From NCBI GenBank assembly GCA_020851955.1, contig JADZBU010000029.1, forward strand, positions 1 through 34,952: a stretch of DNA of 34,952 bases, written 5' to 3'. Both the position numbers and the translations under genes were made by a program. This stretch comes from Chromatiaceae bacterium. Lineage in GTDB: Bacteria; Pseudomonadota; Gammaproteobacteria; Chromatiales; Chromatiaceae. The notes under the pieces are model-generated. The model was not told the origin of the DNA and did not search any database. It saw only the letters and a list, made by a program, of their open reading frames with translations. Positions 16,596 through 32,699 of the stretch are shown here, in pieces (within the stretch, counting starts at the first letter, position 1; every line of letters begins with the position of its first letter).

Positions 16596-18317
16596 CTAAT
16601 GCTTGGCGTCGCCCTCCTCGCGCACCAGGGCGTAATCCGTGCGCCGTACGCCGCGCATCAGCATGTCGGTATCCTCGCTGGCGACCCCCAGGCTCTCCAG
16701 GGCCTCGGCGGACAGGCGGAGGCTGGCCTCCAGGGCCTCGGGGAAGGCCTTGTTGGCCCCCGCCCGCAAGAGGGCGTCACTGGTATCGAGATCCCGGGCC
16801 CGCGCCACGATGGTGGTATTGGGGGCCAGGTCCCGGATCAGGGTGGTGGCCCGCAAGGCCGCCTTGCGGTCGTCCAGGGTCAGCACCACCAGATCCATCT
16901 TTTCAATGTGGACGGCGACCAGCAGGTCCAGGTCGGTGACATCACCGTAAAAGACGGGGTGGCCCTGGTGGCTGAACTCGGCCACTCGCGCCTGCTCCGT
17001 GTCGAAGGCAATGTAGGGGATGCCGCTGCTCCCCAGGATGGTGCCCACGGTATGGCCCACGCGGCCATAGCCGGCCACCAGGGCCCGGCAGTGGTGCTCG
17101 GCACCCGCTTGGGCGAAGGGGAAAGCCGCGTCCCCGGGCACGGGTGCCGCCGCCATGCGGCTAGCCAGGGCATCGCCCAGGCGCACCAGCAGGGGCGTGA
17201 TCAGCATGCTGAAGGAGATGATGCCGATGGCCAGCACGAAGGTGGCATCGTCGATGAGGGCCATGGCCTTGGCGGCGCCGAAGAGCACGAAGCCGAATTC
17301 GCCCCCTTGGGCCAGGATGAAGGCGACCCGCGTCGCCGTCTGACGGCCCTCGCCGAAGGCCAGGCAGAGGGCATAGAGGACCGCGATCTTGATGGCGACG
17401 ATGATGATGACATGGCGCAGAAAGGTCAGAGGGTCCCCCGCTAGGGCGCCGATGTCCACCGACATGCCCACGGCGACGAAAAAGAGGCTCATCAGCAGGC
17501 CCTTGTGAGGATCGATGGCCGCCTGGATCTGGAGGCTGTAGCGGGACCCCGAGAGGGCGACCCCCATGAGAAAGGCCCCCAGGGCCATGGACATGCCGGC
17601 CCGATCCATGGCCCAGGCGGCGGCGAAGACGGCGGCCAGGGCGACCAGAAGGAAGGCCTCGCGGTTGTTCTGGCGCGCCATCAGGTCGAGCACGCGCGGG
17701 ATCAGGTAATAACCCGTCAGGATCACCAGGGTCACGGCGCTGACGACGTACAGCACCTGCTTGAAGATGGGGACATCGCTGGACAGGGTGCCCGTGTCCG
17801 CCAGGATGGGCACCAGGGCGAGCAGGGGTACCACCGCCAGATCCTGCATCAGCAGAATGGCGAAGGTGGTCTGGCCATGGGGGCTGGCGATCTCGCCCTT
17901 TTCCTGCAGCATCTGGATCACAAAGGCGGTGGAGGAGAGGGCGAGGGTGAGGCCGGCCAGCAGGTCCACGCCCCAGCGGGGCTCGAAGAGATGCAGATAG
18001 ACGGCGATGGCGCCGCCGGACAGCAGGATTTGCAGGGAACCCAGCCCGAACATGGATCGGCGCAGGGACCAGAGGCGGCGCGGGTGCATCTCCAGGCCAA
18101 TGACGAAGAGAAGCAGCACCACCCCCAACTCGGTGAAGTGGCGCACATCCTCGACATGTTCCGTCACCGTGGGACCCGGCGTATGGGGGCCAATGAAGAT
18201 GCCCGCCACCAGCAGACCCAACACCGAGCCAAGCCCAAACCGGCGGAAGATGGCGACGGCCAGGGCGGTAGCCAGCAGCAGGATGACGGCGGAATCGACG
18301 AAGGATTTAGGTTCCAA
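16596..18317 (-). CDS. KefB/KefC-like CPA2 cation:proton antiporter with TrkA-N domain
   Basis: A 573-residue protein. Residues about 8-385 form a Na+/H+-exchanger-type membrane domain with some 12 helices; typical stretches are GLGSVLGLLVAGIFIGPHTPG, LTLALSSTAFVIQMLQEKGE and LMGVALSGSRY. A Rossmann domain from about 408 has GYGRVG, an acidic DTE at the end of the second strand, and GDVTDLDLL, matching TrkA-N/RCK domains that bind NAD(H) or nucleotides. KefB/C proteins export potassium and acidify the cytosol during electrophile stress under glutathione control. No KefF/KefG partner gene is adjacent, so YbaL-like or other CPA2 roles are possible. It is transcribed away from the tRNA-Gly. Confidence 0.88.
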   Translation of the reverse strand: MEPKSFVDSAVILLLATALAVAIFRRFGLGSVLGLLVAGIFIGPHTPGPTVTEHVEDVRHFTELGVVLLLFVIGLEMHPRRLWSLRRSMFGLGSLQILLSGGAIAVYLHLFEPRWGVDLLAGLTLALSSTAFVIQMLQEKGEIASPHGQTTFAILLMQDLAVVPLLALVPILADTGTLSSDVPIFKQVLYVVSAVTLVILTGYYLIPRVLDLMARQNNREAFLLVALAAVFAAAWAMDRAGMSMALGAFLMGVALSGSRYSLQIQAAIDPHKGLLMSLFFVAVGMSVDIGALAGDPLTFLRHVIIIVAIKIAVLYALCLAFGEGRQTATRVAFILAQGGEFGFVLFGAAKAMALIDDATFVLAIGIISFSMLITPLLVRLGDALASRMAAAPVPGDAAFPFAQAGAEHHCRALVAGYGRVGHTVGTILGSSGIPYIAFDTEQARVAEFSHQGHPVFYGDVTDLDLLVAVHIEKMDLVVLTLDDRKAALRATTLIRDLAPNTTIVARARDLDTSDALLRAGANKAFPEALEASLRLSAEALESLGVASEDTDMLMRGVRRTDYALVREEGDAKH

Positions 18318-18491
18318 GGGGCGATGCTCCGGGCGCTGGATCGGTCAGGGTAGGGATCGGCGGCTTGCCATCGGGGGAGGCCGCTGCCTGGGGGGCGACC
18401 CGGGTGCGCATCTGGGTCACGTCATCGTGGCTGGCGAGGTGATTCTACAACAGTCCCCGGCGTGAGGGCGGTGGCAGGGCCCACGCCGGGC

Positions 18492-18521
18492 TTGCAATCG
18501 GCGGGTGGGGCTTCTTATACT
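18492..18521 (+). promoter_or_regulatory. Predicted sigma-70 promoter of tRNA-Gly
   Basis: A TTGCAA box (18492-18497) and TATACT (18516-18521) are separated by 18 bases and end 12 bases before the mature tRNA. The spacing and the location directly upstream of a stable RNA gene make this a good candidate. It was found by eye only. Confidence 0.6.
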
Positions 18522-18533
18522 GCCGCCTCCGCA

Positions 18534-18607
18534 GCGGGTGTAGTTCAATGGTAGAACAGAAGCTTCCCAAGCTTCTAGCGTGGGTTCGATTCCCATCACC
18601 CGCTCCA
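18534..18607 (+). tRNA. tRNA-Gly (anticodon CCC)
   Basis: A full cloverleaf can be folded. The acceptor arm GCGGGTG pairs with CACCCGC, the D arm is GTTC/GAAC, and the anticodon stem GAAGC/GCTTC holds loop TTCCCAA with CCC at 18566-18568. The T arm has TTCGATT and an encoded CCA ends the gene. It reads GGG glycine codons. The antisense strand is open for some 60 codons, but that is a well-known artefact of this tRNA. Confidence 0.96.
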
Positions 18608-18890
18608 ATTTTGATGAAATTATACTGATATTTCAATCAGTTAGTTTCTCGAAAATCCTCGAAAAACAGCCAGTGTGATACAACGATGTGTTACACATGG
18701 CCCTAAATCCAACATATATTTACCGGAATCGTTGTGGCATTTAATGCTACCAACGCCGGACTCCTGAACTCCTTCGCCAGACAGATCCCTCCTTGCCAGT
18801 GCTCATCCGGTGGTCACTTGGCACGCCTGTAAAAAAAAGCGGAAGCTCTGGCGAAGGTTTTGATAGACCCGTTCTGGGATGTGGATCAGT
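18608..18890. other. Intergenic, AT-richer stretch after tRNA-Gly; contains one perfect inverted repeat
   Basis: No credible gene is seen. The base composition drops compared with the flanking chromosome. A perfect 6-1-6 palindrome, ATGTGTTACACAT, lies at 18686-18698 and could bind a dimeric regulator. The DUF2442 gene ends at the right edge of this stretch. Confidence 0.5.
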
Positions 18891-19220
18891 TCACGGAGCC
18901 GCGTCACGCAAGGAGTCCCCGGCCCCGTGATGACCTGTCCCGGCATTCGGCCATGGGAATGCGGGGAGATGGCTGGCCTCAGTCTCCTGCCGATTTACCG
19001 ACCAACGTGCCTCGATGGTATCCGCCGACAAGTCCGCGCCGCAAGGCCACTCGATGTAATAACCCCCGTTGCGGACCCGCTGGAATTCGGCGGGATCACG
19101 CAAGGGTGCAAATGCCTCGTGCTCCAGGTAAAGAGCAACATCAAAGAGTCCCGTTTGACCATCCTCGGACTCGACATAAAGGAAAAAATTTTCCCGGGGT
19201 GTGACACAAAGGATTTTCAT
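18891..19220 (-). CDS. DUF2442 family protein
   Basis: A 109-residue protein starting MKILCVTPRENFFLYVESED. The N-terminal 75 residues match the DUF2442 pattern: a short beta strand pair, GQTGLFDVALYLEHEAFAPLRDPAEF, and a C-terminal IEWPCGADLSADTI block. It is longer than the usual 80-90 residues because of an unmatched tail. DUF2442 genes are very often paired with DUF4160 genes and have been proposed as toxin-antitoxin-like pairs, but I know of no established function. Its ATG overlaps the stop of the DUF4160 gene as ATGA. Lower GC than neighbours suggests acquisition. Confidence 0.75.
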   Translation of the reverse strand: MKILCVTPRENFFLYVESEDGQTGLFDVALYLEHEAFAPLRDPAEFQRVRNGGYYIEWPCGADLSADTIEARWSVNRQETEASHLPAFPWPNAGTGHHGAGDSLRDAAP

Positions 19221-19488
19221 TGATCGAGTCCTCGAATCCGAAAAGGGGGGTTACCCTTTACCGCCAGCTCCCAATCCGCCAGCAGTTCCTCCCGGTGGAT
19301 CTCCAACCATGCGACTACCAGCTTATGTTTGCGCCCGGGCAAGGAGCCCGCAAGCACGGAACCGTCCGCAATGGCGTAGACCGCGACCTGATCCTGAAAG
19401 TCTGCGTGGACATGGGGAACATGGTGCTTGTCGGTATCAAAAAAAACATTTTTATCAGGATGCCATAGAACATCGAGATTGTCGGCAT
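19217..19488 (-). pseudogene. DUF4160 family gene, frameshifted at a run of eight T (mRNA sense)
   Basis: Minus-strand translation from the ATG at 19486-19488 begins MPTISMFYGILIKMFF, a typical DUF4160 start, preceded by GGAGGCGGAG. After a run of eight A on the plus strand (19439-19446), the family continuation FDTDKHHVPHVHADF and on to WLEIHREELLADWELAV is found in another frame, ending TGA at 19217-19219. The interval is 272 bases, one short of 91 codons, so one missing T explains everything. The rest is undamaged, which suggests either a recent slip, phase variation, slippage that restores the product in the cell, or a sequencing error. Unrepaired translation stops after about 57 residues. 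The gene overlaps DUF2442 by ATGA. Confidence 0.8.
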
Positions 19489-19822
19489 AGTCTCCGCCTC
19501 CGTCTATGATTGCTTATCGCAGTTGGCCAGTGCCCAAGCCGCACAGTGCGAAGGTATGTAATCGTTCGGGGGTGATTGCCTTGCGCATGATACATTAAGT
19601 ATCTTCAAACCTAGACCCATAAACCATAAGTGACTGATTTAATGAGGGCGATCATTTTATTGGGGTTTTCCCCATTACCCCTCCACTCCCCCTCTGTCCT
19701 TGATCGGTCTATATTTATACAGCATCGGCGCCTTCCTGATCTGAACTTTGGGTCCCATCTCCGCGTGGTTGCTAAACCCAAAAATTCCCTAACAGGCGCC
19801 AGCCACCCACTCGGCCCTTACC
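19489..19822. other. Divergent intergenic region between the DUF4160 gene and asmA
   Basis: A 334-base AT-richer stretch that should contain promoters for both neighbours. A GATAC-ATTAA-GTATC inverted repeat is at 19589-19603. On the minus strand a 24-codon open frame (19514-19588, starting MRKAITPERL) precedes the DUF4160 start; it could be a leader peptide or chance. A GGGGTTTTCCCC palindrome lies near 19660. No larger gene is seen. Confidence 0.5.
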
Positions 19823-25510: not shown

Positions 25511-27046
25511 ATGGAGCGGTTGTCCATGCGTAAGATTCGTGAGTATGTGCGCCTGCGGTTCGAGGTCGGCCTGTCGGCTCGGCAGATCGCGGCGAGCCTG
25601 CAGGTGTCGCGCAGCAGCGTTGGGGAGTACGCGCGGCGCTTTGCCGCCGCGGGGCTGAGTTGGCCCTTGCCCGAGGCCGTGAGCGATACGCAGTTGGAAC
25701 GGCGGCTGTTTCCGCCACCACCGGCGGTGCCGGCCGACACCCGCGTGGTGCCTGACTGGACGGTGGTGCATCACGAGCTGCGCCGTCCCGGTGTGACGCT
25801 GATGCTGCTGTGGGAGGAGTACCGGGCGGAGCACCCCGAGGGCTTCGGCTACAGCTGGTTCTGCCAGCGCTACGAGGACTGGAGCGGCGCGCTCGACGTG
25901 GTGATGCGTCAGACCCACCGGGCCGGGGAGAAGCTGTTCGTGGACTATGCCGGGCAGACGGTGGCGGTCGTGGATCCGGCCAGCGGGGAGCTTCGCACCG
26001 CGCAGATCTTCGTGGCGGTGCTCGGGGCCTCGAATTACACCTACGCCGAGGCGACCTGGTCACAGGGTCTGGCCGACTGGATCGGCTCGCAGGTGCGGGC
26101 CTTCGCCTACTTCGATGGGGTCCCCGCCATTCTGGTCCCCGACAATCTGCGCAGCGGCGTCAGCAAGGCGCATCGCTACGAGCCGGATCTCAATCCCACC
26201 TACTTGGAACTGGCCAACCACTACGGCGTGGCCGTGGTGCCGGCGCGGGTGCGCAAGCCGCGCGATAAGGCCAAGGCGGAGACCGGGGTGCAGATCGTCG
26301 AGCGCTGGATCCTGGCGGCCCTGCGCCACCAAACCTTCTTCAGCCTGAGCGCCCTGAATACGGCCATCGCCGCCCTGCTGGAACGGCTCAATCAGCGGCC
26401 CTTCAAGAAACTGCCCGGTTCGCGCCGCACGGCCTTCGAGACGATCGATCGTCCGGCGCTGCGCCCGCTGCCGCAGACCCCCTACGTCTACGCGACCTGG
26501 AAACAGGTACGGGTGAACATCGACGATCACGTCGAGGTCGATGGGCACTATTACTCGGTGCCCTACACCCTGGTGAAGCAGGCGCTGGACGTGCGCCTCA
26601 CCGAGCACACGGTCGAGTGCTTCCACCACCGCCAGCGCATCGCCAGCCATGTGCGCTCCCCGCTGAAGGGCCGCCACACCACCATCGCCGAGCACATGCC
26701 CAAGGCCCATCGGGAGTTCGCGGAGTGGACCCCGGAACGCCTGGTGCGTTGGGCCGAACAGACCGGACCGGCCACCGCCGGGGTCATCGGCCACATCATG
26801 GCCAACCGTCCGCATCCCCAGCAGGGCTTCCGCTCCGGTTTGGGGATCCTGCGCCTGGGCGAACGTTACGGTCACGACCGCCTGGAGGCCGCCTGTGCGC
26901 GGGCCCTGCGTCTGAACGCCTGCCGCTACCAAAGCATCGCGTCGATCCTGCAACGCGGCCTCGACCGCCAAGCCCTCCCCGAACAGCACAGTCTGGAGCT
27001 ACCCGCCACCCACGACCACCTGCGTGGTCCGGGCTATTTCCACTGA
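25511..27046 (+). CDS. istA: IstA transposase of IS21 element 1
   Basis: A 511-residue IS21 transposase. The N-terminal helix-turn-helix (about 5-55) reads SMRKIREYVRLRFEVGLSARQIA. The integrase core has Asp145 in LFVDYAGQTV, a second Asp in ILVPDNLRSGV, and Glu in RDKAKAETGVQ, the family's DDE triad. A beta-rich DNA-binding region follows with VDGHYYSVPYTLV. The protein cuts and joins the element ends and needs the IstB ATPase encoded 33 bases downstream. Length and motifs are complete. The ATG has a GAGGGG box about 10 bases upstream. Confidence 0.95.
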   Translation: MERLSMRKIREYVRLRFEVGLSARQIAASLQVSRSSVGEYARRFAAAGLSWPLPEAVSDTQLERRLFPPPPAVPADTRVVPDWTVVHHELRRPGVTLMLLWEEYRAEHPEGFGYSWFCQRYEDWSGALDVVMRQTHRAGEKLFVDYAGQTVAVVDPASGELRTAQIFVAVLGASNYTYAEATWSQGLADWIGSQVRAFAYFDGVPAILVPDNLRSGVSKAHRYEPDLNPTYLELANHYGVAVVPARVRKPRDKAKAETGVQIVERWILAALRHQTFFSLSALNTAIAALLERLNQRPFKKLPGSRRTAFETIDRPALRPLPQTPYVYATWKQVRVNIDDHVEVDGHYYSVPYTLVKQALDVRLTEHTVECFHHRQRIASHVRSPLKGRHTTIAEHMPKAHREFAEWTPERLVRWAEQTGPATAGVIGHIMANRPHPQQGFRSGLGILRLGERYGHDRLEAACARALRLNACRYQSIASILQRGLDRQALPEQHSLELPATHDHLRGPGYFH

Positions 27047-27837: not shown

Positions 27838-28868
27838 CAATGACCCGCCTGCGTCGCTTCGCTCCGACTGCCCCGGCCGAATGGCCGTGGAACGGGTGGC
27901 CGAATGCCGGTGGAATCGCCGGCCGGATGTTGGTGGAACAGGTGGCCAAATGGCGTGGAATGCGCACGAGAGCGCCCATTTCCGGCGCTGCACGCCCCGG
28001 CAGGGGGGTAAGGACAATCCCAAGGGCCATGCCTTGCTGAGCTTTTATAACCTGCGCCTGGGCGTTCCCGAAGACGTCCGGGTCGACACGCGCAGCCGCC
28101 ACGAAACCCGGATCTTGCGCGATTATCACCAGGAGCCCCAGGCCCTGACCCGCGAGCGGCGCGGGCTCTGGCTGGTGGATCGCGCCTTCATCGATGCGCC
28201 TTTCTGGGACGCCCAGCAACGGGCCCGGCAGATTACGATGATCACGCGCATGAAAAGCAATCTGGGCGTGGATTCGACCGAGGGCCGGCCCATCGCCGCC
28301 GACCCGGCCAACGCGGGCGTGATTCACGACCTGCGCATCACCTTGTCAAGTTCGCGGGAGGCATGGCACCTCATCACCTACCGCCCGCGCCGCGGCGGGG
28401 CGTTGCAATTCCTGACCAATGACTTCAGCCTGCTGCCCGGCGTGGTGGCCTTCCTCTATTTCCGCCGCTGGGAGGAAGAAAAATGCTTCGATACCTGGAA
28501 AAACGATTTCGCGCAGGCGAAGGCGTGGGGTAAGGGCACGGTGGCCATTGCCAATCAGGCGCGCCTGGCCATCATCACCAGTCTGCTGGTGGCGATCCTC
28601 CTCCACACCCGCCTGGGTGCCGCGGGGGCTCAGGATGAGAAGGCCTGGGCCAAACAGGAAAAGCGGCAGCAGGCCAAGGTGGATGACCCCGATGGCACTG
28701 ATCGCCCAGACTGGACGGTCCCCTGGTTCCGTTATAGCGCTAAGGTGAGCCGGCAGGTCCTGCGCTTCTTCAAACACTGCTTTCTCAAACCAGCCTCGCC
28801 AGGGCTCTATGAACGCGAGCTAGGGCCAATGTTGAAGGCTTACCTATGACGTTAACCGGACACCGTTG

Positions 28869-31068: not shown

Positions 31069-32613
31069 TCAGTGGTAATACTTGGAGCCGCGCACATTGG
31101 CGTGGGCGATGGGGGGCGCGGCGGGGGCGGCGCCCGCTAAGGGACGCCGATCCAGGCCCTTGTCCAGGATCGAGGCGAGGCTGCGGTAGCTGCTGGCACC
31201 GCTGGCCAGCGCCCGGGCACAGGCCGCTTCCAGGCGGGCCTCGCCGTGGGCCTGACCCAGCCGCAGGACCCCGAAGCAGGCGTTGAAGCCCTGCTGGGGA
31301 TGGGGACGGGTCAGGAGCAGGTGTTCGATGAAGGCCAGGGTGTGGGGACCGATCGTCCCGGCCCAGGCCACGATGCGTTCAGGCGTCCAGTCGAGGTACT
31401 GGCGATGGGCGGCGGGCAGATGATCCGCGACGGTGGTGTAGCCGCCGCGCTGGTGGCTGCGGGGGTGGCTGGCGACCCGATGTCCCTGGTGTAAGACCTC
31501 CACCGTGCCGGCGCTCAGGCGCACGTCGAGCTGGCGCTTGATCAGGGGGTGGGGCACCGAGTAGTAGTGCCCATCGACGGCGATGTGCAGGTTCGCTGGG
31601 ACCCGGACCTGGCGCCACTCGGCGTACTCGTAGGGGTGCGGGGGGAGCGGGCGCAGGGCCGGACGCTCCAGACGCTCGAAGTGACTCAGCCGCGAGCCGT
31701 CGAGCTTCTTGAAAGGACGCGCGTTGAGCCCCGTCAACAGCTCGGCGATGGCAGCGTTGAGTTCGACCAGCGAGAAACACGTGCGGTGGCGCAGCCGCGC
31801 CAGGATCCAGCGCTCGACCAGCAACACGGCGCCCTCGGCCTTGGCCTTGTCGCGGGGTTTACGCGCCCGCGCGGGGATCACCGCGCAGCCGTAGTGAGTG
31901 GCGAAGTCCTGGTAGGTGGGATTCAGATCGGGCTCGTAGCGGTGCGCCCGGTTGACGGCGCTACGCAGGTTGTCCGGGACAATGACCTCGGGCACCCCGC
32001 CGAAGAACGCCAGCGCCCGGACGTGAGCGCCGATCCAGTCGGGTAGTTGCTGGCTCCAGGTCGCCTCGGCGTAGGTGTAGTTCGACGCCCCCAACACCGC
32101 GACGAAGACCTGCGCCTGGCGCACCTGCCCCGTGGTGGGGTCGACGACTGCCGCGGTGTGGCCGGCGTAGTCGACGAACAGCTTCTCGCCGGAGCGGTGG
32201 ACCTGGCGCATGACGATATCCAAGCGTCCCCGCCAATCGCGGTAGTGCGCGCAGAACTGGCTGTACTGCCAGCCGTCGGGATGACGCTCCTGGTATTCCT
32301 GCCAGAGCAAGGCCAGGGTCACGCCCTTGCCCCGCAACTCCCGATGGACCGCCTGCCAGTCCGGCGCCACCCGCTGACCCGGCAGTTTCTGCTCCGGGTC
32401 CCCGAACAGTCGCCGCTCCAGCGCCGCCGCATCCAGACCCTCCGGCAACGGCCACGACAGCCCCTCGGCCGCGGCGCGCGCCAGGTACTGCGCCACCACC
32501 GTCGTACGCCCGATGCCGAAGCTGCGCGCAATCTCCCGCGCCGAACCCTGCTCCTGCCATTTCAGGCGCAGCACCTCTGCAATCTTGCGCATGGACAACC
32601 TCTCTCTTGGCAT
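31069..32613 (-). CDS. istA: IstA transposase of IS21 element 2
   Basis: A 514-residue transposase with N-terminal helix-turn-helix SMRKIAEVLRLKWQEQGSAREIA, DDE residues in LFVDYAGHTA, VIVPDNLRSAV and RDKAKAEGAV, the DGHYYSVPHPLIKRQLDVRL domain, and a KYYH end like that of related IstA proteins. The frame is intact. The start at 32613 follows a GAGGGGAAG ribosome box; an ATG six codons earlier is also in frame. Movement would need a working IstB, perhaps from another copy, since its own is frameshifted. Confidence 0.93.
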   Translation of the reverse strand: MPRERLSMRKIAEVLRLKWQEQGSAREIARSFGIGRTTVVAQYLARAAAEGLSWPLPEGLDAAALERRLFGDPEQKLPGQRVAPDWQAVHRELRGKGVTLALLWQEYQERHPDGWQYSQFCAHYRDWRGRLDIVMRQVHRSGEKLFVDYAGHTAAVVDPTTGQVRQAQVFVAVLGASNYTYAEATWSQQLPDWIGAHVRALAFFGGVPEVIVPDNLRSAVNRAHRYEPDLNPTYQDFATHYGCAVIPARARKPRDKAKAEGAVLLVERWILARLRHRTCFSLVELNAAIAELLTGLNARPFKKLDGSRLSHFERLERPALRPLPPHPYEYAEWRQVRVPANLHIAVDGHYYSVPHPLIKRQLDVRLSAGTVEVLHQGHRVASHPRSHQRGGYTTVADHLPAAHRQYLDWTPERIVAWAGTIGPHTLAFIEHLLLTRPHPQQGFNACFGVLRLGQAHGEARLEAACARALASGASSYRSLASILDKGLDRRPLAGAAPAAPPIAHANVRGSKYYH

Positions 32614-32699
32614 CTGCTTCCCCTCGATCAAAGGGGGCGCAGACTACCCAGGGTTATCCCGCGTCGCGAGCCTCCCGGCCCCCGTGGCCGGGGCGCCGG

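Follow-up and report, generated by a model that had tools for sequence, protein, structure and literature searches.

A single-base lesion in the toxin gene of a chromosomal DhiT-DhiA-like pair, best explained as recent loss

Introduction

Why would a gene that is otherwise in perfect condition change reading frame at a run of eight identical bases? We asked this of a DUF4160 gene, paired with a DUF2442 gene, in a stretch of 34,952 nucleotides from a Chromatiaceae bacterium (contig JADZBU010000029.1; hereafter, the window). The run is A8 on the plus strand at 19439-19446, or U8 in the mRNA, as the gene is on the minus strand. A first-pass annotation of the sequence had left three explanations side by side: a phase switch, slippage that yields a low level of product, or a recent loss. 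We favor the last of these, with moderate confidence. As judged from the sequences, a very recent loss of one base from codons 15-17 probably broke the toxin of a DhiT-DhiA type pair; the antitoxin was kept, and the broken gene is probably leaky. An ordinary loss of this sort fits better than a switch built into the gene.

Results

One missing base separates two intact parts of a toxin gene

The DUF4160 gene (dhiT) begins with an ATG at 19488, downstream of a Shine-Dalgarno-like GGAGG (19497-19501, minus strand). Translation from this ATG gives MPTISMFYGILIKMFF, after which the frame departs from the family's sequence. Overall, the frame that begins at the dhiT start (19315-19488, minus strand) has 57 codons, with 16 native residues, then foreign residues and a stop. 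A frame that is entered within the run, at 19444, gives FFDTDKHHVPHVHA...RGLDQ and continues uninterrupted to the stop at 19217-19219. This 3' part (19217-19444, minus strand; 75 codons) is the conserved frame and is undamaged, and it belongs to DUF4160 (PF13711; 66.5 bits as compared to a gathering cut-off of 23, E = 2.5e-18). The conserved frame is one base longer than the window's at the run, which corresponds to codons 15-17, and relatives carry the 5' and 3' parts fused as a single gene of 90 codons. The toxin frame is interrupted after 16 of these 90 codons, and the rest of the pair is free of damage. The first-pass annotation had described one base too few in the U8, and this was exact, as the frames rejoin in the relatives. 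It is the missing base that is anomalous; a T-rich run is expected at these codons, where the conserved residues MFF(F/Y)D dictate one.

We also considered whether translation might restart downstream and give a working short toxin. The first in-frame start past the run is a GTG at 19357. A protein that began there would lose the conserved PHxH motif, so we rejected this candidate as unlikely.

The antitoxin gene is intact

The downstream gene (18891-19220, minus strand) is intact and encodes a DUF2442 protein (PF10387; 46 bits, cut-off 23.9, E = 6e-12). Its start overlaps the stop of dhiT in an ATGA (19217-19220), and this spacing is identical in 73 relatives. A Shine-Dalgarno-like GAGGA lies eight bases 5' of the antitoxin's start, within the last codons of dhiT (19229-19233, minus strand), and a purine-rich core is present at this site in 79 of 80 relatives. 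Because this site is kept, the antitoxin should still be produced despite the early stop in the toxin frame. Ribosomes on the broken frame would now halt about 95 bases upstream of the antitoxin, so a partial loss of antitoxin by uncoupling is possible.

The order of the genes, with the toxin first and an overlapping antitoxin directly 3' of it, is the layout of DhiTA. The pair is of DhiT-DhiA type and chromosomal, with the roles of toxin and antitoxin taken by analogy from the literature on relatives. In Dickeya dadantii, excess DhiT inhibited growth, while DhiT and DhiA together did not; there too, the toxin gene precedes an overlapping antitoxin gene (PMC8198452). With the related module of Thermus plasmids, transformants were obtained when the first open reading frame was left out of the construct but not when the second was (PMC12724237). 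Both studies back the suggestion in the first-pass annotation that the gene is toxin-like, and from these relatives we infer that the window's own DUF4160 protein would be toxic. The DhiT equivalog model (NF048015 from NCBIfam) has a cut-off of 100 bits. Because the scores of 66.2 bits for the window's 3' part (P0001) and 90.9 bits for the intact relative L008 both fall below it, we describe the window's gene as DhiT-like rather than strict DhiT. A sequence search for relatives with solved structures found none, and a model of L008 (pLDDT 83; five strands and a long helix) had no convincing fold match (best Z of 5.5 at an rmsd of 5.2). Models of defence systems did not match the pair.

The pair lies in an accessory segment

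The pair lies in an extra segment of 1215 bases (18608-19822) between a tRNA-Gly(CCC) gene (18534-18607, plus strand) and asmA. In two genomes from the same genus (G002 and G003), only about 65 bp separate the tRNA from asmA, and the segment is absent. The segment is thus dispensable, and the comparison of sequences identifies the pair as an accessory insertion. A search for attachment repeats flanking the segment found no convincing ones. The region on the opposite side of the tRNA varies too, spanning 0.2 kb in the window (18317-18534) and about 2.5 kb in both G002 and G003 (L168/L169, from a kef-like gene to the tRNA). Elsewhere in the window are two IS21-type transposase genes (Mu-transpos_C_2/rve; 25511-27046 on the plus strand and 31069-32631 on the minus strand), with a DDE transposase gene between them (27881-28849).

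The genome also contains a second DUF4160/DUF2442 pair, which is intact and whose toxin is 57% identical. Beside it is a gene that resembles class D beta-lactamases, with STFK and KTG motifs by eye (L171, 4411-5271, minus strand, in G000:C345).

The broken gene shows no sign of decay

We collected 114 related copies of the pair. In the closest 92, we identified near-invariant columns, which we defined as at least 95% conserved. The window's copy has no deviations at 31 such columns in DUF4160 or at 12 in DUF2442; the mean relative deviates at 0.71 and 0.33 of them, respectively. The first-pass annotation had called the gene otherwise undamaged and coupled to DUF2442, and these counts and the ATGA overlap bear it out. 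A bias towards the third position is retained as well, with 16, 7, and 43 differences from L008 at codon positions 1, 2, and 3. With no hits at near-invariant columns, the loss is either recent or not real. Assuming that near-invariant columns take about one in four neutral substitutions, fewer than about 10 such substitutions would have occurred in these 270 bases since the loss. A caveat is that perfect conservation would look identical after a simple miscall of one base, or in a gene that stayed useful through slippage.

Three other relatives have a broken toxin gene and retain the antitoxin gene. In L042 (2427-2696), the DUF4160 gene has an in-frame stop at codon 17, and in L079 (73-342), it has two in-frame stops. 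In L175 (around 1250-1566 of G604:C135), a deletion cuts the toxin to 24 codons; this gene has a T8 that is in frame (ATG TTT TTT TTC). For the opposite case, with a broken antitoxin and the toxin kept, we found no clear example among 91 distinct loci. The direction of loss matches what is predicted for toxin-antitoxin systems, with the counts being small. Overall, a recent loss, as the first-pass annotation had offered among its options, is well supported: there is a single lesion, the pair is missing from two genomes of the same genus, and loss recurs among relatives.

Intact relatives lack the run of eight

At these codons, the 114 relatives carry between 1 and 7 T in a row. T6 or T7 is found in 20 of them, and T8 or T9 in none. 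Two pattern scans of further-flung genomes (369 and 398 genomes) added a single family member with T8, L175, whose run is in frame and whose toxin is already truncated. The first-pass annotation would have taken the absence of a homopolymer at this codon from all relatives as a refutation, and the comparison comes out halfway: many relatives have 6-7 T, but among the homologous genes compared, a run of 8 or more is unique to the window apart from L175. Two close relatives (L140 and L142) have T7-A-T at this site. A single deletion outside of a homopolymer, in a sequence like theirs, could also give T8, and the loss may then have created the run rather than resulted from it.

From base composition, 0.06 runs of A8 or T8 are expected by chance in 35 kb, and the window has two. 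The other, an A8 at 18831-18838, lies 600 bases away in a non-coding part of the extra segment.

Could the missing base be an assembly error?

The one serious rival to recent loss is an error in sequencing or assembly: the cell's gene would be intact, and one base would have been dropped from the run. Homopolymers are a common place for such errors. The gene is otherwise perfect, and the assembly is a fragmented draft (475 contigs, 89% complete, 4.26 Mb). Against this, frames in the same assembly continue across other such runs. Of 58 distinct A/T runs with a length of at least 8 in the 4.26 Mb, we inspected 57. Ten of these runs lie inside Pfam domains whose frames continue straight across them (in L095, L114 (three), L117, L119 (two), L126 (two), and L130), and further runs of at least 8 sit within long open frames. 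The only other frames that we found split at such runs belong to two insertion-sequence transposases, which is a class of genes known for recoding. We can therefore rule out general miscalling of homopolymers in this assembly, and an error at this one run seems unlikely to us.

As for the two transposases, one is IS3-like (L122, 1340-2144 of G000:C370), and has orfA and orfB with an A9 at the change of frame, which is likely a recoding site. The other is ISAzo13-like (L121, 23-1269 of G000:C355, minus strand), and its domain match begins at an A8 run, as if frames were joined there.

Is the run a site of selected slippage?

Alternatively, slippage at the run might be selected, so that a deliberately low dose of toxin is made beside normal antitoxin. 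This could occur during transcription of the U8 or by a -1 slip of the ribosome on U UUU UUG (19438-19444, minus strand), which would rejoin the frames. Transcription slippage is physically plausible. The RNA polymerase of E. coli restores the frame by insertion, which is the direction required here, at about 5% for T7 and about 10% for T8, and not at all for fewer than seven T (PMC6260861). The U8 is within this range, so some leak of full-length toxin is likely in principle. Also, the frame past the run is undamaged, and there is a precedent for the rescue of a broken frame at a homopolymer, namely A11 in tssM1 from Citrobacter rodentium (PMC4256274). But a run of this length is present in no intact relative. 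The ribosomal route has further problems: the RNA downstream folds no better than shuffled sequences (z of 0.2 to 0.4), no Shine-Dalgarno-like element lies just upstream of the run, and U_UU.U_UU.G is not among the efficient -1 heptamers of E. coli (PMC4066793). With no structure beyond that of shuffles, a site that is not conserved, and a weak heptamer, we ruled out a programmed -1 frameshift. What stands of the slippage option in the first-pass annotation is its plausibility at U8; the lack of a conserved run, of a stimulatory structure, and of a strong -1 motif speaks against the rest. We consider selected or programmed slippage to be quite improbable.

In a more specific form of this idea, the U8 would be a selected dose limiter. 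Only transcripts with slippage would give full-length toxin, whose level would always stay below that of the antitoxin. Judging from the sequence, this is more doubtful still. A toxin dose kept useful by U8 slippage would represent a new means of setting toxin level, but the present evidence does not favor this.

Is the run a phase switch?

Contingency tracts recur in homologues. In the 114 relatives and in our scans, we did not find a simple-sequence tract that was kept at differing lengths, and the absence of T8 and T9 from all 114 counts against the first-pass annotation's option of a switch. In phase variation, replication slippage would change the length of the run and turn the toxin on or off. 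A lone homopolymer close to the gene's 5' end would suit this, and A/T runs at least 8 long are mutable when Salmonella serovars are compared (PMC8538453). But eight A/T bases make a short tract for a switch, the protein sequence already accounts for the tract, a single deletion in T7-A-T would also yield it, and mutS and mutL are present and intact, so this is the least credible of the explanations. The intact mutS and mutL also speak against hypermutability.

Discussion

We return to recent loss as the preferred explanation. The main product of dhiT would now be a short, non-functional peptide, and the antitoxin would still be produced from its own Shine-Dalgarno site in the 3' end of the toxin gene. 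The cell would keep antitoxin with little or no toxin, a state that may be tolerated because the opposite state would be harmful. Transcription slippage at the U8, which occurs at percent levels in E. coli, is likely to let through a little full-length toxin without being selected for, and the antitoxin should restrain any toxin that leaks. The loss will probably become permanent.

If the loss is real, then this locus is a clean snapshot of how a chromosomal toxin-antitoxin pair decays, with the toxin going first and the antitoxin staying. The DUF4160/DUF2442 family has enough broken copies that the order of loss could be counted.

Comparison with known systems

The homopolymer where the frame breaks is reminiscent of tssM1 from C. 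rodentium. However, tssM1 has A11, with about 20% slippage measured and both products needed (PMC4256274), whereas the window has U8 and the run is not conserved.

The pair itself resembles two known systems. The first is the type II DhiT-DhiA system of Dickeya dadantii 3937, whose DUF4160 and DUF2442 genes are co-transcribed, with the toxin first and a short overlap (-3 as tabulated; PMC8198452). Unlike in Dickeya, the toxin frame in the window is broken. The second is the module that enhances the persistence of Thermus plasmids, which has DUF4160 and DUF2442 in the identical order; its second open reading frame is indispensable and its first is dispensable, as expected of a toxin followed by its antitoxin (PMC12724237). 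The Thermus module is plasmid-borne and intact, whereas the window's pair is chromosomal, sits beside tRNA-Gly, and has a broken toxin.
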